DNA of 39,619 nt from an uncultured Bacteroidales bacterium (GTDB taxonomy: Bacteria; Bacteroidota; Bacteroidia; Bacteroidales; Bacteroidaceae), in assembly GCA_902798685.1 (NCBI GenBank), contig CADBXO010000016.1:1-39619 (forward strand). Direction: 5' to 3'. Of the stretch, positions 15,489-24,505 are shown piece after piece (within the stretch, counting starts at the first letter, position 1; every line of letters begins with the position of its first letter). The position numbers were made by a program, and so were the translations under genes. The notes below the pieces were generated by a model. It was given only the letters and a program-made list of their open reading frames with translations, was not told the DNA's origin and did not search any database.

Positions 15489-15995
15489 ATGAAAAAGTTC
15501 TTGTTCTTAGGCTTTATCGCCGCTACAATGTTTTCACTGGCCTCATGCGACCTGATCGAAGAGGCAAAGGATGCAATCAATGAGATTCAGGACGACCAGG
15601 CTCCCGCATATACCGAGTCAGACGGAGGTCGCACCATCACCGTATCACAGAAAAAGAGCGGATTCGGCTCAATTCACGAGGCAAAGTTCATGGTTGACTC
15701 ATTGAAGGCCGACACTATCTGCGAATCGGCCAAGACCACTCTGACATTCTTCAGCGATATCCTGGCCGATGAGTTCATCAACAACATCAAGAAGGATTCC
15801 ACACTGGTAGCCAAGTGGAGCATCGAGAAAGACAAGAATAACGCCAAAGCCGTCAACATTGACCAGACCAGAGCAATGGCCGGATTCAGAAAGCCCATCG
15901 TAGTTCCCGTATACAAGGGAATCAAGAAGGCCTATGACGAAGGCGGTCAGATTCTGGACATCATGAAGCAGTTCAGTGAGTTAGATCAAAAATGA
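15489..15995 (+). CDS. Small lipoprotein of unknown function
   Basis: A 168-residue predicted lipoprotein with signal peptide and lipobox FSLASC (Cys20), followed by an acidic linker and an alpha/beta domain. An AAAAGGAAAC ribosome-binding-like site precedes the ATG, unusual for this genome, and suggests translation as the second gene after the helical exported protein. The protein ends DQK, and its TGA stop (15993-15995) is the start of the palindrome at 15991-16029. No family recognised. Confidence 0.8.
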   Translation: MKKFLFLGFIAATMFSLASCDLIEEAKDAINEIQDDQAPAYTESDGGRTITVSQKKSGFGSIHEAKFMVDSLKADTICESAKTTLTFFSDILADEFINNIKKDSTLVAKWSIEKDKNNAKAVNIDQTRAMAGFRKPIVVPVYKGIKKAYDEGGQILDIMKQFSELDQK

Positions 15996-16030
15996 TACAA
16001 TTGGGGTCAGGCCCCAATTGTACTATTTTA
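15989..16030. terminator. Palindrome P1 (TGATAC family): shared terminator of two convergent genes
   Basis: TACAATTGGGG (15996-16006) and CCCCAATTGTA (16012-16022) form an 11-bp perfect stem, flanked by A- and T-tracts so that it can end transcription both ways. The plus-strand stop TGA (15993-15995) and the minus-strand stop TAG (16025-16023) lie in the two extended arms. Confidence 0.85.
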
Positions 16031-17963
16031 TCAAAATACAGGCTCCGCCTCCGGGTGCGAGCCTTATTTTTATTGTCGATTTACGGGTTACGCTGATGCC
16101 GCTGACGGTTTGGTACGTTTCGCGGTTGGTGCGGTAATGGGTATCGTCGGCATCGGTATTGACGGTTGCCGTGAACTTTCCCTTGCCTAAGAAACTGAGA
16201 GGTATTTCTATCTCACGCTCATCCTCATTTGTAGCGGCACCTATGAGCCAGTCACCGTCCTTGTTCTGACGAGCCATCACGATGTACTCGCCTATCTCAC
16301 CGGCCAGAGTGATGCTCTCCTTCCAGGGCTGCTTCTCGGCGCTCAGGAACTCCAGCAGTGAGGGATACTTCTGGTAGTACTCAGGAATATCGGGAATTAC
16401 GGTTGCACCTGACCATGTAATCAGTGTACGTGCAATCTCACCAGTTACGGTGCTGGGCACCTCCTGATTGTTGTCCTTACGGGTTGTGCGTCCCTGATGC
16501 AGCTCCAGGAAGCCGTTGTTCTGGTCAATCGGGCCAGCCACCATATTGACAAAGGCCGATGTCACAAAAGTCTTGGGCTGGAATATCTGACGGCCGTCCA
16601 GCTGCGCCTTGCAGTACTCGCGGGTTACGGCGTTGGGCCAGGTGCGCATCTGTCCGAACGGATGCACGGGATAGTCATGATAATCAACCATCAGATGATG
16701 CTTGGCGCACAGGGCTGTAATCTCCTGGGTCTTGCGGTTCTTCTCCTGCGGATTGCCGTTCATAAAGCCGTACTTTACGCCGCTTGCACCCCACTCCTCA
16801 TACTGCGCCAGAGTCTCCTCAATGGGATAGTTGGTGCCGGCCACATCGTTCAGGTAGAGCCAAACGCCCACACCCTTGTCCTTTCCGTATTTAATTATGC
16901 GCTGAACATCGCGCGCCTTATCACCCTTGGTGGGGTCCGAATCCTTCTCAAACTCGGGACCGTACCAGTTGGCATCGAGCACCAGGCCCTGGAATCCCTG
17001 TTCTGCGGCAAAGTCAATCATGCGGGTCCAGGAGTCATAGTTCATGCCGTAGCGGTAACCCTCCCAGACTGCGCCGTCTATGCGCCAGTCCCAGAGATAT
17101 ACGCCGGGACGCACCCAGCTGAAATCACCCTCCGGCTCTGGGTTGAGCAGTTCCAGCAGGTGTGAGTCCACCAGGTCGCCGGGGGTACGGCCAACCATCA
17201 GCACTCGCCAGGCTGTCGGCTTTCCTTCTGCAAAATCCTCCGTTAATACCGACATTTTTGTAGAACCCTGCTCCGAGTGCAGTCTCATGGGACATCCGTC
17301 TGCTCCAAGATCGGCCTCATGTAACGCAAGGTACAGGTCATCGGCCGCCTTGATAACCATAATGGGCAGGCGCTCGCCGCCTGCATCGGACAACTTCTCG
17401 GGGCCGATGTTATGACGCTCGCCGTTGTAGTACCACGCGGTGTAGTCATCGGCAAAATTGAAATCTGTATGTTCTCTGTATTTTTCGGGATACATTCCTG
17501 ACGCTTTCTGCTCCGAATAAGTCTCAACAGATGAAGCTGTAATTATTTGTGGGGTGCATCTGAAAGCAACGCCCTCATTATAAACGCGTACCTCAAACAG
17601 CACATAGCCGGGATAACACATAACCATCCTATCGGAATAGCTACCCTTGACAACGGAACGTTTGCCCCAGACCGGAGTCCACTTATACTTGATTTTCGTG
17701 GACCCGAACAAATGGCCTAACGGTTTCAGAGTAGTAAACTTCATTTCCTTGTCATCAATGCTTAAACCCGTATGAGACCAGTCAACAACAACATTACCCC
17801 GAACAGAAATCCTATAAGCCAGTTTCTGCTCATCATCCACCTTAAGGCTGAAAACTATTTGCTTGTCAGGTGATTTTACCTGATAGAGTATTTTGGACTC
17901 GGCACTGATTTGGCAAAGGAATGTTGAAACGGCAAACGCTGCCAGCAGAAGGATTCTTTTCAT
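16023..17963 (-). CDS. Glycoside hydrolase family 97 enzyme (alpha-glucosidase/alpha-galactosidase type)
   Basis: A 646-residue exported glycosidase acting on alpha-linked glycans in the periplasm. The start at 17963 gives signal peptide MKRILLLAAFAVSTFLCQISA; the upstream in-frame ATG at 18011 is rejected because it lies upstream of the -7 element TATCTTTG (17995-17988). The N-terminal beta-super-sandwich begins YQVKSPDKQIVFSLKV, the central (beta/alpha)8 barrel contains GLVLDANWYGPEFEKD and GVKYGFMNGN, and the C-terminal all-beta domain follows YIVMARQNKDGDWLIGAATN. GH97 includes inverting (Glu base) and retaining (Asp nucleophile) members. The GVKYGF segment has no Asp where retaining members have one, which hints at the inverting type; this is inference. 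The protein ends in Lys, with its TAG stop inside palindrome P1. Confidence 0.9.
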   Translation of the reverse strand: MKRILLLAAFAVSTFLCQISAESKILYQVKSPDKQIVFSLKVDDEQKLAYRISVRGNVVVDWSHTGLSIDDKEMKFTTLKPLGHLFGSTKIKYKWTPVWGKRSVVKGSYSDRMVMCYPGYVLFEVRVYNEGVAFRCTPQIITASSVETYSEQKASGMYPEKYREHTDFNFADDYTAWYYNGERHNIGPEKLSDAGGERLPIMVIKAADDLYLALHEADLGADGCPMRLHSEQGSTKMSVLTEDFAEGKPTAWRVLMVGRTPGDLVDSHLLELLNPEPEGDFSWVRPGVYLWDWRIDGAVWEGYRYGMNYDSWTRMIDFAAEQGFQGLVLDANWYGPEFEKDSDPTKGDKARDVQRIIKYGKDKGVGVWLYLNDVAGTNYPIEETLAQYEEWGASGVKYGFMNGNPQEKNRKTQEITALCAKHHLMVDYHDYPVHPFGQMRTWPNAVTREYCKAQLDGRQIFQPKTFVTSAFVNMVAGPIDQNNGFLELHQGRTTRKDNNQEVPSTVTGEIARTLITWSGATVIPDIPEYYQKYPSLLEFLSAEKQPWKESITLAGEIGEYIVMARQNKDGDWLIGAATNEDEREIEIPLSFLGKGKFTATVNTDADDTHYRTNRETYQTVSGISVTRKSTIKIRLAPGGGACILIK

Positions 17964-17987
17964 TGTTGCAAATTGGTTTATCAGCCC

Positions 17988-18016
17988 CAAAGATAACAAA
18001 AAACGACGCAAAGGGG
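17988..18016 (-). promoter_or_regulatory. Arm-plus-promoter module upstream of GH97
   Basis: Minus strand reads CCCCTTTGCGTC, a T-tract and TATCTTTG (the -7 element). It matches the module upstream of the GH5 gene (18865-18893) at 25 of 29 positions. The predicted transcription start is about 18 bases before the ATG at 17963. Confidence 0.65.
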
Positions 18017-18079
18017 TATTTCTTTTAGACGCTTCGCTTGGTAAAAGCGTCCCTTCGGGCCGAGCGAACTTTGCGTCAC
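18005..18079. repeat. Palindrome P2 (TGACGC family) with nested hairpins
   Basis: GACGCAAAG (18005-18013) pairs with CTTTGCGTC (18069-18077). The enclosed 55 bases hold an inner stem, GACGCTT (18028-18034) with AAGCGTC (18045-18051), and a CCC-TTC-GGG mini-hairpin (18051-18059). The right arm contains the TGA stop of the small membrane protein gene. It separates that gene from the GH97 promoter on the same strand. Confidence 0.8.
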
Positions 18080-18465
18080 TTTTTCAGGAAGAGGATCGCG
18101 GCAGTGAGCAACGCCGGGCCCAGGCCGCTGTAGAAAGATGCAGTGAATGCTACAGGCACGCCAATGATCTTAAGCGCCATACCCAGGCACATCATGAAAA
18201 TCACAATAACCCAGCCGCGCACAGGAAATGTCTTTAAGACCGATGTGCGCTCGGGTTGCTCCTGTATAAACCTGCAATATTTGGCTACAATACGCCTGAA
18301 CATGAAAATGAATCCCGTCAGGACCAGAGCGGTTATGAGCATGAGCCACCACAGTTGTGACTTATCGGCCGCAAAATAGGCCGATACACCCTTGACCGTA
18401 ATTATAACTCCCGGAATGCCCCAGATAACGGCGGCAATGTAATAGAGGCTGGAACGATTTATCAT
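18076..18465 (-). CDS. Small integral membrane protein, function unknown
   Basis: A 129-residue protein with four predicted membrane helices (about 7-29, 38-56, 84-104 and 108-127), loops with basic residues (MFRRIVAKYCRF) and C-terminus LFLKK. No family recognised. TAACTTTG (minus 18477-18470), a -7 element, lies four bases before the ATG, so the mRNA is predicted to be leaderless. The stop TGA (18078-18076) is the first part of a TGACGCAAAG palindrome arm. Confidence 0.72.
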   Translation of the reverse strand: MINRSSLYYIAAVIWGIPGVIITVKGVSAYFAADKSQLWWLMLITALVLTGFIFMFRRIVAKYCRFIQEQPERTSVLKTFPVRGWVIVIFMMCLGMALKIIGVPVAFTASFYSGLGPALLTAAILFLKK

Positions 18466-18544
18466 GCTGCAAAGTTACACATTTGTCCTGTTCCGGGCAG
18501 TCGGCAATAATGAGTATATTTATGACGCATTGGATTTGGGCCGG

Positions 18545-18862
18545 CTACCCCTGCACCTTGGGGACGCAGCACGCAGGTACGGCCTATTCTCTCCCTAAGG
18601 TGAGTAGGAAATACGGTTTCTCGCGGGCTGCCCCCGCACCTTAGGGAGCCACAACGCTCGTAGAGCCATTTTCTTCCCTAAGGTGAGCAGGAAATACGCT
18701 TTCTCGCGGGCTTACCCCCGCACCTTAGAGAGCCACAACGCACGTAGAGCCATTTTTCATCCCTAAGGTGAGCTGAAAAATCGCCAGAACCTGCGCTACC
18801 CCCACACCTTAGGGAAACAGCACGCAGGTACGGCCTATTCTCTCCCTAAGGTGAGTAGAAAA
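18545..18862. repeat. Array of four 84-bp tandem units, each an inverted repeat
   Basis: CACCTT begins at 18554, 18637, 18721 and 18805 (steps 83, 84, 84), and CCCTAAGGTG begins at 18593, 18676, 18761 and 18844 (steps 83, 85, 83). Each unit carries a CACCTTAGGGA-type left arm and a TCCCTAAGGTG right arm about 28 bases apart, so it can fold into a hairpin. Units 1 and 4 share the spacer ACGCAGGTACGGCCTATTCT; units 2 and 3 share CACAACGC followed by GTAGAGCCATTTT, giving an A-B-B-A order. No plausible ORF. The array fills the gap between the small membrane protein gene and GH5. Confidence 0.85.
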
Positions 18863-18864
18863 TT

Positions 18865-18893
18865 CCCCTTTGCGTCACTTTTTGCTATATTTG
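18865..18893 (+). promoter_or_regulatory. Arm-plus-promoter module upstream of GH5
   Basis: CCCCTTTGCGTCAC, a T-tract and TATATTTG (18886-18893). The first part is a lone right arm of the TGACGC palindrome family without its left partner. Only six bases separate the -7 element from the ATG at 18900, predicting a leaderless transcript. Confidence 0.65.
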
Positions 18894-18899
18894 CAGAAT

Positions 18900-20000
18900 A
18901 TGAGACTGTTTAGAGTACTTGCTGTCATCATGCTGAGTGTGCTGATGTCAGCGCCCACGCAAGCCCAGAACGGCTTTGAGATCAAACGCGGAGTAAACGT
19001 GAGCCATTGGCTGAGCCAGTCGCAGGCCCGGGGTCAGGCGCGCGCCAACCACATCAAGGAGCAGGACATGATCCGAATCCGTGAGCTTGGTTTTGACCAC
19101 ATCCGCCTGCCCATAGACGAGGTCCAGTTCTGGGACGAGCAGGGCAACCGCCTGGATGAGGCCTGGCAGCTCCTGACCAATGCTCTGGATTGGGCCGTCA
19201 AGCACAATCTGCGCGTCATAGTGGATCTGCACACCCTCCGCTCCCACAGTTTCGTGCTGCAGGAAGGCCAGAAAAACGCCCTCTACGAGGACCCCGCCGA
19301 ACTGCAGAAACTCATCGGCATGTGGACGCAATTATCGGCCGTCTTAAAAAAATACCCCGTCAGCATGGTGGCCTACGAGTTCATGAACGAACCCGTTGCC
19401 GATGACCCAGAACAGTGGAACCAGGTAGTTGAAAAGGTGCACGCCGCCCTACGCAAACTGGAACCCGACCGCAAGCTGGTAATCGGCTCCAACCGATGGC
19501 AGAGCGTGGGCACGTTCAAGGACCTGCGCATCCCGCCCGGCGACAAGAATATCATCCTGAGTTTCCACTACTACAACCCCATGTTCGTGACCCACTACCG
19601 TGCTTCGTGGACCGATGTGGGCCGATACACGGGCACCGTCAACTACCCCGGCCAACTCATTTCACAGGCCGACTATGAGCAGGCAGCCCCGCAGTTGCAG
19701 AAAATAATACGCGACAACGAAGGCCTGACCGTCTGGAACCGCGAGCGAATCAAAAACGATATGGCCGATGCAATCAAACTGGCCCAGGACCTGGGTCTGC
19801 AGCTCTTCTGCGGCGAATGGGGAGCCTACCAGCGCACGCCCCGCGACCTGGCCTACGCCTGGATGACCGACATGATCTCCATTTTCAACGAGTGCAACAT
19901 AGCCTGGACCCTCTGGTGCTACGATGCCGACTTTGGCTTCTGGGACCAGCGCACCCAGGACTTCAAGGACAAAGGAATGTTTGACATCCTGATGAAGTGA
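18900..20000 (+). CDS. Glycoside hydrolase family 5 (cellulase-type) endoglycosidase
   Basis: A 366-residue exported enzyme expected to cleave beta-linked glucans, mannans or xylans; the subfamily cannot be told. The start at 18900 gives signal peptide MRLFRVLAVIMLSVLMSAPTQA; an in-frame ATG at 18870 is rejected because it precedes the -7 element. The (beta/alpha)8 barrel shows RGVNVSHWL, the GFDHIRLPI strand, VDLHT, the proton donor Glu in YEFMNEPVA, LSFHYYNP and the nucleophile Glu in LFCGEWGAY, then the aromatic WTLWCYDADFGF. All catalytic parts are present. The protein ends MK, with TGA (19998-20000) forming the first bases of a TGACGCAAAGGG arm. Confidence 0.93.
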   Translation: MRLFRVLAVIMLSVLMSAPTQAQNGFEIKRGVNVSHWLSQSQARGQARANHIKEQDMIRIRELGFDHIRLPIDEVQFWDEQGNRLDEAWQLLTNALDWAVKHNLRVIVDLHTLRSHSFVLQEGQKNALYEDPAELQKLIGMWTQLSAVLKKYPVSMVAYEFMNEPVADDPEQWNQVVEKVHAALRKLEPDRKLVIGSNRWQSVGTFKDLRIPPGDKNIILSFHYYNPMFVTHYRASWTDVGRYTGTVNYPGQLISQADYEQAAPQLQKIIRDNEGLTVWNRERIKNDMADAIKLAQDLGLQLFCGEWGAYQRTPRDLAYAWMTDMISIFNECNIAWTLWCYDADFGFWDQRTQDFKDKGMFDILMK

Positions 20001-20040
20001 CGCAAAGGGAAACGACCCCTTTGCGTCACTTTGCGTCATT
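19997..20040. terminator. Palindrome P3 (TGACGC family), three arms, between convergent genes
   Basis: GTGACGCAAAGGG (19997-20009) pairs perfectly with CCCTTTGCGTCAC (20017-20029), and a second right arm CTTTGCGTCA follows at 20029-20038. The left arm holds the GH5 stop TGA; the last arm holds the TGA (20038-20036) of the convergent lipoprotein gene. Alternative pairings of the three arms could serve each strand. Confidence 0.85.
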
Positions 20041-21346
20041 TGGGTATAATGACGGGAACAAACGGAGCAAAGAAGTCTCTTCCGTTGCTGTATTTCATGC
20101 GGTCCATGCGGACATCAATCGTATCGGTGGAGCCGAATCCGAATCCGTCAGTCATGGTGAGCGGAATGTAAACCTCTTCAACATTATCGCTGGTACCGTT
20201 AGCGGCTGCCTGCGAGTTTCTATGGTTCAGGATACTCTCAAGAACAACGTTCATGCCCCAGTCCTGATTTGTCGGGACAATCATACTGACCACCTTGTCG
20301 TTCAACCAGTCATCATTGTCAGTTGAAGCGAGTCCCTCATAAAAATCAATATACATCTCCTTTGCCTCTTCATAGTCATCCTCGTCAGAGTCCTCATCCA
20401 GGCCGAACAGATCATAATAGGTGGGAGTGTCATTGGTCCGGTACTCCACAATCTGACAGGTAACACCTATGTAGCTGTTGTTCAGCGGATGTCCCGCGGT
20501 GCCATCCGTATCCCATGGCGTGGGTTTGTGCGGCATCACATAGATATCGGAATCAATATAATCATGACCCAGGACCATGAACTCAGCCACATCCGAAGGC
20601 TTGAAATCAGCAGGCTTCTTAAGGTCAATCACAATATCCGCATAATCCGCATCCTGAGCATCCACGCTCCACGGATTGGAGTCAAAGCCGGCAAAATCAA
20701 AGGAGCCCTTGGTGGCAATATGATACAGTGTGATTCTTGTCACATGGATACGAAGGTCATTCTCACCGCCGCGCGCCGTGTTGTCAAATCCGATCTTGAA
20801 CTTGGCCGATGAAAGGGCGTGCCTAAATCCCAATGTTACCGGTGTGCCGCCGTCATGATCCTTAACCATAGACACAAGCAGATCCTTCTGAGAGCTGATA
20901 TCCGCCGGAACAGTATACACAAACCTGCCGTCAGCTGAAACAGCAATTGAATCACCAGTGTTATCGCACGTAGCATAGAATGTGTGCTTACCGGCACCAT
21001 CGGGCCAAATCAGCTCCTCATGCCCGACAGCCGCCCATTTATCGGCAGACTTTGTAAACAGAAAATTGTCAATCCAAGGGCTCTCACTACCCTGCACGCC
21101 AACCAGCCAGAAAGAATTCACGGCCGATGCCCCAACGCCGCCATCAGAATCATTATCTGCCACATTTACAACAAACGTGTTATCTGGAATGCTGTCCACA
21201 TCAACTTGAGACGGAATGCTGTCTCCTTCAACTTGAGAGTGGTTATTCTTGCGCGGCTCATCCTCATCCTTATCCTTACAGCAGCCAGACACAGCAAACG
21301 CAACCATACACAGGGCCATACACCCCAAGACAATGCTCTTTCTCAT
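20036..21346 (-). CDS. Fimbrillin-family (Mfa-like) lipoprotein
   Basis: A 436-residue predicted surface lipoprotein. The start at 21346 gives MRKSIVLGCMALCMVAFAVSGC with a lipobox cysteine; an ATG two codons upstream (21352) is also possible. An acidic linker (DKDEDEPRK, then two copies of a VEGDSIPSQ/VDVDSIPD-like motif) leads into a fimbrillin-like N-terminal domain marked by LGFRHALSSAKFKIGFDN and THVTR-like strand pattern IHVTRITLYHIATKGSFDF. The C-terminal half is a second beta domain with an acidic stretch (DEDSDEDDYEE). It may be a surface or fimbrial tip-like component. It ends VIIPK, with its TGA in a palindrome arm. Confidence 0.78.
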   Translation of the reverse strand: MRKSIVLGCMALCMVAFAVSGCCKDKDEDEPRKNNHSQVEGDSIPSQVDVDSIPDNTFVVNVADNDSDGGVGASAVNSFWLVGVQGSESPWIDNFLFTKSADKWAAVGHEELIWPDGAGKHTFYATCDNTGDSIAVSADGRFVYTVPADISSQKDLLVSMVKDHDGGTPVTLGFRHALSSAKFKIGFDNTARGGENDLRIHVTRITLYHIATKGSFDFAGFDSNPWSVDAQDADYADIVIDLKKPADFKPSDVAEFMVLGHDYIDSDIYVMPHKPTPWDTDGTAGHPLNNSYIGVTCQIVEYRTNDTPTYYDLFGLDEDSDEDDYEEAKEMYIDFYEGLASTDNDDWLNDKVVSMIVPTNQDWGMNVVLESILNHRNSQAAANGTSDNVEEVYIPLTMTDGFGFGSTDTIDVRMDRMKYSNGRDFFAPFVPVIIPK

Positions 21347-21384
21347 ATGCATCAATTATTGATTAAAAGACTATTACTGATACA

Positions 21385-21415
21385 CAAAGTTAAGCAATCT
21401 CTTCAAATAGTCAAA
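21385..21415 (-). promoter_or_regulatory. Promoter of the fimbrillin-like lipoprotein gene
   Basis: TTTG (minus 21415-21412), a 19-bp spacer and TAACTTTG (21392-21385) match the consensus. The -33 TTTG is the end of the T-tract of palindrome P4, so the repeat contributes part of the promoter. Confidence 0.75.
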
Positions 21416-21453
21416 AACGACGCATTGGGGTCGTTTCCCTTTGCGGCGTTTTT
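21413..21453. repeat. Palindrome P4, hybrid between the families
   Basis: The left arm AAAAACGACGCATTGGGG (21413-21430) pairs with CCCTTTGCGGCGTTTTT (21437-21453) at 14 of 17 positions. It mixes the GACGC word with the ATTGGGGTC core of the TGATAC family, linking the two. It lies just upstream of the truncated SDR gene. Confidence 0.75.
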
Positions 21454-21473
21454 AAGGCCGATAACAATAATCC

Positions 21474-21830
21474 ATGACCGCCCGAATCCCCGCGCCCGGC
21501 ATCACAATCTACTCAGCCACAAAAGCCTACCTCAGGAGTTTCGGCAAAGCGCTCCACTACGAATTCCGCCCCTACGGCGTAGGAGTAACCACCGTCTGCC
21601 CCGCCGCCATCGCCACTCCGCTCTACAGAATGAGCCCCCGCCTGATGAACTGGGGCCTGAAAACCGGCCTGGTCCACACCCCCAAGTGGCTGGTAAAACG
21701 CGCCCTGAGAGCAATGTTCCGCGGCCGCCGAGTAGTAAGCCCCTCCCTGATGAACCTCTGGCTGCCGGCCTTCATCTCCCTACTCCCCGGCTTCCTGGTT
21801 GCCGCAATCTGGAAGAAACTCAAAAAATGA
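21474..21830 (+). pseudogene. Truncated short-chain dehydrogenase/reductase, C-terminal half
   Basis: The 118-residue frame begins TARIPAPGITIYSATKAYLR, which is the active-site region of classical SDRs (Tyr13 and Lys17 of the YxxxK motif), then continues PYGVGVTTVCPAAIATPLY and a hydrophobic tail as in membrane-associated SDRs of about 260 residues. The N-terminal half with the TGxxxGIG cofactor-binding motif and the NNAG strand is missing; in-frame stop TAA lies at 21468-21470 and palindrome P4 sits right where the missing half should be. It is most likely a remnant after a deletion. A functional short protein is unlikely because no nucleotide site remains. Its stop TGA (21828-21830) is in palindrome P5. 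Confidence 0.8.
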
Positions 21831-21865
21831 TACAATTGGGGCCTGACCCCATTTGTATCATTTTT
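21822..21865. terminator. Palindrome P5 (TGATAC family)
   Basis: The left arm (21822-21841, A-tract, TGATACAATTGGGG) pairs with CCCCATTTGTATCATTTTT (21847-21865) with one mismatch. It contains the stop codon of the SDR remnant and ends with a T-tract on either strand. Its centre CCTGA is the reverse of the TCAGG centre in P1, P6 and P7, so it is inserted in the opposite orientation. Confidence 0.85.
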
Positions 21866-21913
21866 CAAGAAAAAACCGTATATTCGCTGGGTAACAACCT
21901 TTTCCCTATAATC

Positions 21914-22075
21914 ATGGAATATCAGAAGAATGAATATGGCGAGCCGGTTAAGAAGGACAAGACAGAGATAGCTGCCAAGATCCTGCTTGGATTGGGTGCT
22001 GTGGTTGGCCTTGCTATTCTTGGATTTATCATCTGGTGTGGCTGGCACGTATTTTCGGGATGGGAATCGTTCTAA
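21914..22075 (+). CDS. Small single-span membrane protein
   Basis: A 53-residue protein: a charged N-terminus (MEYQKNEYGEPVKKDKTE), one membrane helix at about 22-45 (ILLGLGAVVGLAILGFIIWC) and a short WHVFSGWESF tail. The start at 21914 is the only ATG after the palindrome. A near-consensus -7 element, TATATTCG (21879-21886), lies 27 bases upstream. The next gene starts 3 bases after its stop, so the pair is probably translated together. Function unknown. Confidence 0.65.
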   Translation: MEYQKNEYGEPVKKDKTEIAAKILLGLGAVVGLAILGFIIWCGWHVFSGWESF

Positions 22076-22078
22076 GAC

Positions 22079-22381
22079 ATGCTGCCCAAGTTCATAATAA
22101 CGAGAGACGGAGTGTTGCGCCTGGGAATGGTCAATCAGCACAAGGACCTTCTGGAGCCCGAGGACGATTGCATCGGCGGCGGGTATTATCAGTTTGACTT
22201 TACCTGCAACCGCATGATCCTGGACCGGGCGTCATATGACTTTGGGATTCCCCGCTGGCATTTGCTTGATTCGCTAAAGGTCCCGGAGGTTTATCGAGGA
22301 CTGCGCATCATCTACCGGTACGATGATGATTTTCATGAGGACTTCCAGGTTAGTGACCTGCTCAAGATTGAGTATTATTGA
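22079..22381 (+). CDS. Conserved small soluble protein, function unknown
   Basis: A 100-residue acidic protein without signal peptide or membrane helix. The pattern LRLGMVNQHKDL, CIGGGYYQFD and YDFGIPRWH looks like a conserved Bacteroidota hypothetical family, but no function is known to me. Its ATG is 3 bases after the stop of the 53-residue membrane protein, suggesting co-translation. It does not end in a palindrome. Confidence 0.7.
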   Translation: MLPKFIITRDGVLRLGMVNQHKDLLEPEDDCIGGGYYQFDFTCNRMILDRASYDFGIPRWHLLDSLKVPEVYRGLRIIYRYDDDFHEDFQVSDLLKIEYY

Positions 22382-22411
22382 ATTTGCAACCTGGTTGCGC
22401 GGGCATCGGCC

Positions 22412-22419
22412 TACCTTTG
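22412..22419 (+). promoter_or_regulatory. Promoter -7 element of the methyltransferase gene
   Basis: TACCTTTG, 27 bases before the ATG at 22447; no TTTG at the usual distance. An AAAGGA purine run lies 7 bases upstream of that ATG. Together they support 22447 over a TTG start at 22378. Confidence 0.55.
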
Positions 22420-22446
22420 CTGCCGGAATCAATAAAAGGAACGATT

Positions 22447-23109
22447 ATGGCAGACAAAATCAAGAAATCATACAAGTTCAGCAAGAAGTTTTATGACGAT
22501 GCGCTGACGCAGAGCAAATGGTGGAGCCGGTTGTATTTCAGGCTGCTTTGGGGCGGCACGAACGACAACGAGATTGCACGCCGTGTGCTCGACTGGATCC
22601 CCGACGGCTTTGACGGCAAGCTTCTCGACGTGCCCATCGGCACCGCTGTCTTTACGGCCGATAAATACAAGCGCATGACAAAGGCCCAGATAACAGGCCT
22701 CGATTACAGCACGGATATGCTGGAGCGGGCTCAGGAGCGTCTGAGCGAGGCCGGAATCGGGAATGTGAAGCTGATGCAGGGTGACGTTGGCGCCCTACCC
22801 TTTGCGGACGAAACGTTCGATACGGTGCTCTGCATGAACGGCCTGCACGTGTTCCCCGACAAGAGCCGCGCGTATGCCGAGATAAGGCGCACCCTGAAGA
22901 AGGGCGGCGAGCTGCTGGCCTGCTTCTACATCGCCGGACAACTCAAACGCGCCGACTGGCTGGCCCGCACCGTTATGGCGCGCATGGGATGGTTCACTCC
23001 GCCCTTTGACACGGCCGATGACGTGCGCCGCCGCCTTGCCCCCTACTACGACATCCGCGAATTCTACACCGACGGCGCTATGCTCTACTTCCGCGCCAGC
23101 AAAAAATGA
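22447..23109 (+). CDS. Class I SAM-dependent methyltransferase
   Basis: A 220-residue cytosolic methyltransferase of the UbiE/Methyltransf_11 kind. Motif I is the diverged KLLDVPIGTAVFT (in place of the usual DxGxGxG), followed by ITGLDYSTDMLERAQERL (acidic residue binding the ribose), MQGDVGALPFADETFDTVLC (motifs II/III) and LKKGGELLACFYI. The substrate is unknown; the sequence is not specific for quinone or sterol substrates. The protein ends SKK and its TGA (23107-23109) lies in palindrome P6. Confidence 0.88.
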   Translation: MADKIKKSYKFSKKFYDDALTQSKWWSRLYFRLLWGGTNDNEIARRVLDWIPDGFDGKLLDVPIGTAVFTADKYKRMTKAQITGLDYSTDMLERAQERLSEAGIGNVKLMQGDVGALPFADETFDTVLCMNGLHVFPDKSRAYAEIRRTLKKGGELLACFYIAGQLKRADWLARTVMARMGWFTPPFDTADDVRRRLAPYYDIREFYTDGAMLYFRASKK

Positions 23110-23143
23110 TACCATTGGGGTCAGGCCCCATTGGTACCATTTT
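23101..23143. terminator. Palindrome P6 (TGATAC family)
   Basis: The left arm (23101-23120, ending TGATACCATTGGGG) and right arm CCCCATTGGTACCATTTT (23126-23143) pair with two mismatches across TCAGG. The stop of the methyltransferase gene is in the left arm, and the T-tract runs into the -7 element of the next gene. Confidence 0.83.
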
Positions 23144-23145
23144 CT

Positions 23146-23153
23146 TATTTTTG
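23146..23153 (+). promoter_or_regulatory. -7 element TATTTTTG, leaderless position
   Basis: It lies three bases past the palindrome T-tract and four bases before the ATG at 23158, so the transcript is expected to start at the start codon. Confidence 0.55.
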
Positions 23154-23157
23154 CACT

Positions 23158-23949
23158 ATGACTTTCATTATTGAATCAATAGTGGCGTGCGCGCTCTTCA
23201 CGCTATTTGTGTTCCTGATGTCCAGGGACCCCATCAAGACTGTCTTCAACTACCCTCCCGCCATCATCGAGCGGTGCGACAAACTGGGGCTGGTGGATGC
23301 GAGCAACAGACCCGGCGGAGCGGCATTCTACGCCAAAAAGATTGTGGCTCTGGTCATATTTGGCATTCTGCTAGGACTATTGGTCCGATACGCAAACGGT
23401 TGCACCACCTTCTGGAGCGGAGCGCTCACCGCATACGCGCTCTGGTGCGTGGTAAACTGGTTCGATGCAATCGTGCTTGACTGCATCTGGTTCTGCCACG
23501 ACAAGCATTTCATAATCCCCGGCACCGAAGATATGACGACCGATTACCACGACTACTGGTTCCACATCCGTGGTGCCCTGATCGGCATGCTCCTGGCTAT
23601 CCCCGCCGTCGCCATCGCCGGGCTTTTAACACTAGGCGGAAGCCGCGTGAGCGGGAGCGAGAAGGAGGCCGATCGCATATCGGCCCAAATGGCGGTCGAC
23701 GGGGTTAGCAACTATTGCCACAGCGAGTTTGACTGGAGCCCGGCGCAGGATAATCCGTCCCTGATGTATGTGTCGTTGGCCGATAGCACTGAGACAGAGT
23801 ACAACGTGGTGTTCCGCAGCTATACGGGCACGCTCACCTATTTTCATGTTGACCGGGAGAGCGGCTCCGCCAGAATGGTCGAGTTCGTTCCGGCGCTGAA
23901 TCTGGAGAGCGAGGCCGGCTCCATCAACTTGCGTGATTACCTAAAATGA
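23158..23949 (+). CDS. Integral membrane protein with C-terminal extracytoplasmic or cytosolic domain
   Basis: A 263-residue protein of unknown function. Starting at 23158 (MTFIIESIVACALF) places the start right after a -7 element; the in-frame ATG at 23131 lies inside the palindrome and is rejected. Predicted helices are at about 3-21, 60-78, 85-110 and 145-168, with a conserved-looking RDPIKTVFNYPPAIIERC loop and WFCHDKHFIIPGTEDM. The last 90 residues form a soluble domain with several beta strands (YNVVFRSYTGTLTYFHVD). The N-terminal part resembles uncharacterised membrane proteins of Firmicutes and Bacteroidota; the C-terminal domain may be a fusion. It ends LK, its TGA being in palindrome P7. 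Confidence 0.7.
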   Translation: MTFIIESIVACALFTLFVFLMSRDPIKTVFNYPPAIIERCDKLGLVDASNRPGGAAFYAKKIVALVIFGILLGLLVRYANGCTTFWSGALTAYALWCVVNWFDAIVLDCIWFCHDKHFIIPGTEDMTTDYHDYWFHIRGALIGMLLAIPAVAIAGLLTLGGSRVSGSEKEADRISAQMAVDGVSNYCHSEFDWSPAQDNPSLMYVSLADSTETEYNVVFRSYTGTLTYFHVDRESGSARMVEFVPALNLESEAGSINLRDYLK

Positions 23950-23983
23950 TACCAATGGGGTCAGGCCCCTTTTGTTCCATTTT
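23942..23983. terminator. Palindrome P7 (TGATAC family), degenerate
   Basis: The left arm TAAAATGATACCAATGGGG (23942-23960) and right arm CCCCTTTTGTTCCATTTT (23966-23983) pair across TCAGG with several mismatches. The TGA stop of the membrane protein gene is inside the left arm. It looks like an older copy. Confidence 0.75.
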
Positions 23984-24026: not shown

Positions 24027-24419
24027 ATGAAGAGATTTACTAAGATCATTGTGGCAGTGGTTGTAGTTTTAGCCCTTTTGGTAATCACCTGCCCCAGCAA
24101 AGAGAAGCACCAGAGAGTTATCCGTGACCAACTTAAAGAAGCTATTCAGAAGGAGTTACCCACTGAGGATATCGATACTGAAAATCCCTTCGTGAAGGTA
24201 TTATCGGCCATTGGAACAACATTGCTGGATACTTTCATTGAGAAGAATCTGAAGGTCCAGAGCTACGGCCTCTTCAGCATCGGCAGAGCCGGCAATCCGG
24301 CCGAAACCATCTCAATCGGCATTCTTGGACACGTATTCCTTTCTCCCAAAGAGAAACACATTTCACTCGAAAATACCGATTTCACATACTCCCTTGAAGA
24401 CGGTCTCAGAGTCTACTAA
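24027..24419 (+). CDS. Small exported or membrane-anchored protein, DUF4359-like
   Basis: A 130-residue protein with an N-terminal hydrophobic helix (about 7-21, KIIVAVVVVLALLVIT) followed by CPSKEKHQRVIRDQ, which resembles the start of the DUF4359 family (a helix followed by an NPSKEDY-like motif); the match is from memory and moderate. The remainder is a small domain ending TDFTYSLEDGLRVY. The single Cys21 after the helix could be a lipid-attachment site, but the preceding VIT is a poor lipobox. It is a stand-alone gene between palindromes P7 and P8. Confidence 0.65.
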   Translation: MKRFTKIIVAVVVVLALLVITCPSKEKHQRVIRDQLKEAIQKELPTEDIDTENPFVKVLSAIGTTLLDTFIEKNLKVQSYGLFSIGRAGNPAETISIGILGHVFLSPKEKHISLENTDFTYSLEDGLRVY

Positions 24420-24427
24420 GCGAGCAA

Positions 24428-24505
24428 AAGTGGGACATTGGGGACGGTTCCGTTTGGCACCATTTTCGAAAAAAGTGCCAAACGGAACCGTCCCCAATGT
24501 CACTT
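24428..24505. terminator. Palindrome P8 (GGGGACGGTTCC family), 31-bp stem
   Basis: The arms 24428-24460 and 24475-24505 are complementary over 31 pairs apart from one extra G in the left arm; the 14-base loop holds ATTTTCGAAAAAA. The core ATTGGGGACGGTTCC and the GTTTGGCAC edge resemble REP-like elements linked to Y1 (RAYT) transposases. It starts 8 bases after the DUF4359-like stop and separates it from the efflux operon. Confidence 0.88.

Follow-up and report, generated by a model that had tools for sequence, protein, structure and literature searches.

We analysed a 39,619-nucleotide (nt) stretch of DNA from an uncultured Bacteroidales bacterium (contig CADBXO010000016.1, hereafter the window), in which palindromic repeats carry the stop codons of neighbouring genes. 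The repeats appear to belong to a small single-strand-DNA transposase found in a group of gut Bacteroidaceae. A sequence-only reading of the window had placed eight stop codons in six related palindromes, and all eight were confirmed in place, strand and codon. The first palindrome (15988-16029) lies between convergent genes and closes both. Its TGA at 15993-15995 (plus) ends a 168-amino-acid (aa) open reading frame (ORF; 15489-15995, plus), and its TAG at 16023-16025 (minus) ends a GH97 gene (longest ORF, 16023-18011, minus). An inverted pair at 18001-18081 supplies the TGA at 18076-18078 (minus) of a 129-aa ORF (18076-18465, minus). A palindrome cluster at 19996-20039 again serves convergent genes, with a TGA at 19998 (plus) for a GH5 (cellulase) gene (18900-20000, plus) and a TGA at 20038 (minus) for a fimbrillin-like gene (20036-21355, minus). 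Three further palindromes each close one gene on the plus strand: 21822-21865 (TGA at 21828) ends the C-terminal half of a short-chain dehydrogenase (SDR) gene (21474-21830), 23101-23143 (TGA at 23107) ends a methyltransferase gene (22447-23109), and 23941-23983, whose right arm is degenerate, ends a 272-aa ORF (23131-23949) at the TGA at 23947. Start codons were picked by eye within the longest ORF for the GH5 gene (18870-20000), the methyltransferase gene (22378-23109) and the last ORF, which then spans 23158-23949. Five of the eight stop-bearing ORFs matched Pfam families (GH97, GH5 cellulase, fimbrillin-like, short-chain dehydrogenase and methyltransferase); the 168-aa, 129-aa and 272-aa ORFs had no Pfam match at E 0.01.

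The palindromes are members of repeat families, as the sequence-only reading had supposed, but it had mixed two of them. Family A has a TGATAC or TAGTAC foot (15988-16029, 21822-21865, 23941-23983 and, as the TACCA type, 23101-23143), and family B has a TGACGC foot (18001-18081 and 19996-20039). Its list was also incomplete, and three palindromes that carry no gene's stop have to be added. These are a family-B palindrome upstream of the SDR gene (21414-21454; inverted-repeat search), a family-B half element upstream of the GH5 gene (18860-18893), and an inverted pair of another type, GGGGACGG (24434-24501), separated by 14 nt from the TAA (24417-24419) that closes the upstream ORF.

We searched for family A in the genome from which the window comes (own genome, G000; 2.26 Mb, 84% complete) and in a comparison set of 37 same-genus genomes. 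The pattern TGATACNNNTGGGG matched 28 + 22 arms in the own genome, compared to 1 + 1 for a reversed control. Patterns of this type include TGA and are biased, so we replaced them with the core TACNNNNGGGGNCWGNCCCC, which leaves out the tag, the triplet directly before the TAC of the hairpin foot. The tag-free core matched 59 + 60 = 119 family-A arms in the own genome and none with the reversed pattern. The tag, read on 111 arms, was TGA on 63 and TAG on 32 (95/111 together), with other triplets on 16. An A stood immediately before the tag on 100 of the 111 arms, and at least four A on 79. When 113 arms with context were sorted by their surroundings, 32 had a gene stop at the tag, 24 had a gene stop nearby and 57 faced no gene end; TGA or TAG was still present on 47 of these 57. 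This split is approximate: a home-made codon score decided what was a gene end, the search for stops ran from 150 nt in front of the tag to 120 nt past it, and an O6-methylguanine-methyltransferase-like gene (contig C2, 121454; Pfam) fell below the score and so landed among the arms without a gene. One palindrome carried both stops of a convergent pair at its tags in three places (C2:62777, C3:15875 and window 15993). Among the 37 same-genus genomes, the TACAA type of family A occurred in 23 and the TACCA type in 17, and the richest genome (G028) held 261 arms of both types together (~130 copies).

Counted by gene, a family-A element lay within 60 nt in 47 of 173 genes of the own genome, and in 29 of the 47 the stop fell exactly on the tag (offset 0). 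We excluded another 24 genes that have other element-like sequence, and the remaining 102, without element-like sequence, served as comparison. These counts support the proposed preference for stops at the first three bases of the repeat, which is strong. The placement is also more precise than that of ordinary hairpins, as had been claimed; these were seen behind 16 of the 102 element-free genes, with centres 17-74 nt from the stop. Stops at the tag were TGA in 22 genes, TAG in 7 and TAA in none, compared to 62 TAA, 36 TGA and 4 TAG in the element-free genes (P = 2 × 10^-10). In the other 18 of the 47 genes, the element stood 4-46 nt behind the stop (+4 to +7 in 10, +10 to +46 in 8), and the tag was in frame in 5, as by chance. 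Among genes above the codon score, none continued through a tag within 120 nt. Open frames past a tag at C10:22456 and C2:113151 were below the codon score or out of range. Read-through tails occur elsewhere, in a transposase gene on contig C8 and in locus L104.

No Y1/RAYT transposase gene lies inside the window, as the sequence-only reading had stated. We found two elsewhere in the own genome (Pfam Y1_Tnp, PF01797; 41.6 and 41.2 bits, cut-off 23). Both proteins contain NHVH and YIHQNP, seen by eye, as the HUH and Y---NP motifs. A REP_Tyr_transpos match (55.6 bits) was below its cut-off of 80, a match to the TnpArep structure 4er8 was weak (E = 0.084), and helix-turn-helix (HTH) families matched at about residues 222-270, all below Pfam cut-offs. 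A family-A palindrome stands on each side of the RAYT gene on contig C2. The RAYT gene on C8 has the GGGGACGG type at its flanks, and two neighbouring ORFs there stop at the TGA of TGACAAAGGGG. The C8 protein (L031, 1462-2316) reads its C-terminus KGTVPFDTPAESKNPV from its own flanking element, and a similar tail, KGTVLFGPKLKNGAK, occurs in the RAYT of L084. The C2 RAYT adjoins a mannose-6-phosphate-isomerase gene, and a RAYT stands next to this gene in several related genomes. A dense family-A cluster surrounds the C2 RAYT (C2:110000-127000; L033).

A RAYT gene (PF01797) was present in 23 of the 37 same-genus genomes, at 0-4 copies per genome. The fetched loci contained 37 RAYT genes, and a repeat of at least 12 nt was common to both flanks in 30 of them. 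Their own stops were TGA in 24, TAG in 12 and TAA in 1, and in 16 of the 37 a G-run began 9 or 10 nt from the first base of that stop. The type of palindrome at the RAYT (TACAA or TACCA, which differ at the fourth foot base) was the majority type of the genome in 8 of the 9 genomes whose RAYT has a TAC-type palindrome. The exception, G032, has a RAYT flanked by TACCA with 171 TACAA and 62 TACCA arms in the genome, perhaps because its specificity changed recently or because a second RAYT went unseen. A GGGGWSAS-type motif is matched in family A by GGGGTCAG/GGGGACAG; GGGGACGG, of the other type, does not fit it. The palindromes appear to be repetitive extragenic palindromic (REP)-like elements that belong to a Y1/HUH transposase of the TnpA-REP subclass 2.1 or TIRYT type, with a putative HTH-like tail at its C-terminus. 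Their association with the RAYT genes, together with the type match, suggests that this RAYT may move them.

Related genomes also bear on how the window arose. In L085, a family-B RAYT and one further gene lie between the homologues of the 129-aa ORF and the GH5 gene, the neighbours of the half element at 18860-18893; the 129-aa ORF, which adjoins this RAYT locus, is 99% identical there. L055 has the SDR gene in full, immediately following a family-B RAYT, and the window ORF at 21474-21830 is likely a gene remnant. Its stop carries family A in the window and family-B sequence in the relatives L055 and L074. Judging from L085 and L055, the window appears to be a decayed RAYT locus, which would explain why it holds family-B palindromes without a RAYT. 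A unit of 83-84 nt with CACCTTAGGGA / TCCCTAAGGTG arms occurs four times in tandem at 18540-18870, the gap where L085 has its RAYT gene; it is perhaps another palindromic repeat family.

We compared orthologues of MutS, FolE, TatC, Nfo and Lgt across the genus, and 100 regions among the matches listed were fetched. Contig-edge matches (MutS and Lgt of G003) were excluded. Gene names agreed with Pfam for these five genes and for Bcp, the methyltransferase, a Gly_transporter-domain gene and mannose-6-phosphate isomerase. Under a strict hairpin test that included the own genome, 29 orthologues had an element at the stop (TGA 25, TAG 4, TAA 0), 7 further down and 90 none (TGA 44, TAA 38, TAG 8). 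The strict test leaves imperfect elements, such as those at Lgt in G009, G033 and G035, in the last class, and 5 of the 29 come from the own genome, which defines position 0. Without the own genome, TAA was still absent at the stop (0/24; P = 2 × 10^-5). A looser test, again without the own genome, placed element-like sequence within 18 nt in 46 orthologues (TGA 38, TAG 5, TAA 3), further away in 4 and nowhere in 71 (TAA 35, TGA 29, TAG 7; P = 6 × 10^-7).

Proteins of element-bearing orthologues ended at the own-genome residue in 37 of 46 cases (MutS 16/17, FolE 6/6, Lgt 12/14, Nfo 3/4, TatC 0/5). Because the same-residue counts differ by gene, an unchanged protein end is well shown for MutS only. 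The idea that the element replaces the last codons was not supported as a general rule, and MutS ends in ..KKILKGK with and without it. The sequence-only reading had held that orthologues ending alike without any palindrome would speak against its proposal. This is the case for MutS, since the same residue ends element-bearing and element-free orthologues (8/9 of the latter); Nfo, Lgt and TatC vary more. Among element-free FolE orthologues, 15 of 17 ended within one codon of the own-genome end. The hairpin feet at the MutS stop were TACAA, TACCA, TGCAA, CACAA or GCCAA, depending on the genome. Lys is the last residue in all eight window ORFs whose stops sit in palindromes, as had been noted. 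This ending, though common, is not universal: of the 26 listed ORFs with a family-A stop and a length of at least 90 codons, 21 ended in Lys and 5 in Glu or Gln. We rejected the A-tract as a general reason for Lys, as MutS and part of the FolE and Lgt orthologues end in Lys without an element.

One of two options in the sequence-only reading was that the repeats are a mobile family resembling REPs or miniature inverted-repeat transposable elements, and we did observe their presence and absence at orthologous sites. Comparison of 123 element copies with all fetched loci gave 65 pairs that passed a gap filter, although many of the "empty" sites still hold another hairpin. A gene ending in ..KTEK is filled in L101 (TAG|TAC..) and empty in L100, L057 and L063, with TGA, TAG and TAA respectively. 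MutS is filled in L018, L174, L180 and L187, with GGAAAATGA|TAC.. in L018 compared to GGAAAATGA|ACT.. in L182. A gene ending GGC AAA CTC TGA in L062 reads GGC AAA TTA TGA|TAC.. in L101, and L222 has CTG TGA|TAC.. with no A-tract. The informative pairs show a hairpin unit standing directly behind a stop in its native place, with or without an A-tract.

Another account would be that these are ordinary intrinsic terminators, alike by chance or convergence. The elements do have a hairpin with an A-tract and a T-tract, which may terminate transcription in both directions. The other option of the sequence-only reading, an element selected as a combined stop and terminator cassette, is conceivable. 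RNA folds of four of the six stop-bearing stretches in the window were far better than those of shuffles (z -4.7 to -6.7), and folds were weak for the copies at 18078 (z -2.1) and 23947 (z -2.3). Palindromes at 15996, 21837, 23957 and 21430 were hits in a scan for terminator-like sites, but the scan excess was weak (14 sites compared to 8.8, s.d. 3.0, in shuffles). Ordinary hairpins in the same genome, 16 in number, stand at scattered distances, and the elements share their sequence between unrelated genes, with no control matches, and often sit exactly on the stop. We rejected ordinary terminators as the whole explanation and consider this account highly improbable.

We lean, with modest confidence, towards a reading in which a hairpin unit is joined 3' of a TGA or TAG, often the native stop, and in which the element supplies the stop in some genes. 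The mobile unit would consist of the hairpin (TAC..GGGG..CCCC..GTA) and a spacer with an A-rich end, often closing with TGA or TAG. It would be joined, probably as a single strand, directly 3' of a host TGA or TAG. Where intergenic gaps are short, the harmless place for it would be the native stop codon. Many copies at gene ends would then begin at a native TGA or TAG and leave the protein unchanged. Because the ends of the unit carry the same triplets, a gene that had lost its stop, or whose stop lay across the insertion, could take the stop of the element. The element's own end would thus serve as the stop in some convergent neighbours and after loss of an old stop. A stricter form of the proposal is that the Y1/HUH transposase targets the stop codon itself, joining the hairpin 3' of TGA or TAG with the same triplet at the other end. 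Insertion would then be harmless and the element could replace a lost stop; we offer this form tentatively, as possible rather than probable.

Several observations weigh against joining at native stops. Six of the 18 displaced elements stand at +5, chiefly as TAAAATGA, a class that the target model does not predict. TAG made up 7 of 29 stops at the tag compared to 4 of 40 native TGA/TAG stops, a non-significant difference (P = 0.18). One of the empty ..KTEK sites has TAA, and the L182 MutS site may be a deletion rather than an empty site. Only 32 of 71 element-free orthologues ended at the own-genome residue (MutS 8/9, Nfo 8/15, FolE 6/17, Lgt 6/15, TatC 4/15), TatC elements in other genomes stand at other positions, and the orthologues are not phylogenetically independent. 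Elements were present with no RAYT found in several genomes, such as G012 and G034. An order-wide search (295 genomes) returned distant RAYTs in four other genomes only, without such an arrangement or stop. Both ends of the element carry TGA or TAG, as do arms without a gene, so the triplet may belong to the element and not be its target. FolE has AAAA before the stop in 5 of 5 family-A cases compared to 0 of 20 others, and Bcp changes from ..VLG to ..VLK with the element; some change of the last bases is therefore likely. In the Gly_transporter-domain gene, L072 reads ATG TAA AAA TGA|TAC and L062 reads ATG TGA AAA TAG|TAC, compared to ATG GAA AAA TGA|TAC in the own genome, where the old stop was likely lost and the TGA of the element, two codons later, is used.

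Many of these observations suit a different account, in which the stop is borne by the element and selection does the rest. The unit AAAATGATAC..GTATCATTTT, with its stop triplets and A-tract, would insert with little site preference; only copies that close the frame at or just beyond the old stop would survive, and the triplet at both ends would make the element tolerable at gene ends. The tags on arms facing no gene (47/57), the A-tracts (79/111 arms, and FolE), the stop takeover in the Gly_transporter-domain gene, the Bcp ending, the three palindromes that close convergent pairs, the natural variation of the ends of Nfo, Lgt and TatC, and the +5 class all favour it. MutS opposes it, as its end matches the element-free end to the codon and different hairpin feet occur at the same stop, and so do the sites without an A-tract (L222, L101). 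We regard this account as a serious candidate that is nevertheless doubtful. Old insertions could also have been rewritten in place: an element gained early at a stop would later be overwritten by the current type of the genome, which is compatible with an element-borne stop as well as with joining at native stops. The five kinds of hairpin at the MutS stop, the family-A element at the window SDR stop where relatives have family B, and the agreement of RAYT and genome type (8/9) fit such rewriting. However, 71 of 117 scored orthologues had no element-like sequence under the loose test, and repeated insertion at a favoured site would look alike; we think rewriting in place is unlikely.

IS200/IS605 elements have a Y1 transposase, hairpin ends and a conserved target tetranucleotide flanking the left end. 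The present elements resemble them in transposase and hairpins, but their units are short and carry no coding sequence, and a stop triplet is their supposed target. The nearest described group is TnpA-REP subclass 2.1, to which TIRYT probably corresponds according to Quentin and co-workers, in the part of PMC6006769 that treats it. Descriptions in parts of PMC6006769 and PMC3733652 share with our system a Y1 core with HUH and Y---NP motifs, a putative HTH-like C-terminal tail, inverted-repeat flanks, a GGGG[AT][CG]A[CG] motif and few gene copies. That part of PMC6006769 identifies no REP-like sequence near TIRYT genes, whereas here there are hairpin repeats, ~130 copies in the richest genome, TGA or TAG at most tips, and a RAYT whose own stop is often at the hairpin. 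The TIRYT description appears to fit in part.

REP ends able to supply a stop were noted earlier for GTAG REPs (Di Nocera and co-workers; relevant passages of PMC3733652), and GTAG REPs and REPtrons likewise lie close to gene 3' ends. Those passages on GTAG REPs contain no counts of stop use, orthologue comparison or filled and empty sites for stop supply. Our elements lack the GTAG/GTGG foot tag and have TGA or TAG instead, mostly behind an A-tract and at both ends; no GTAG tag defined the 111 arms, on which the foot triplet was TGA, TAG or, in 16, another. REPs directly behind rayt stops are described in a portion of PMC2817692. For E. coli, sections of PMC12306157 count 446 putative REPs, of 4,072, no further than 15 nt from a stop codon, and credit ribosome stalling by REPs behind stops to earlier work. 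In both cases a hairpin follows closely behind the stop, but in the present elements the opening triplet of the repeat is itself the stop in 29 of 47 neighbouring genes. We found no paper on these Bacteroidota elements within the limited literature collection searched.

These data give transposases resembling subclass 2.1 a clear cognate hairpin set, where the 2018 survey, in its part on this subclass (PMC6006769), reported none. They raise the testable question of whether a stop codon can be the target of a single-strand transposase. They also suggest how a mobile repeat becomes part of gene ends, with the same stop carrying different repeat types across species and a lost stop replaced by that of the repeat.

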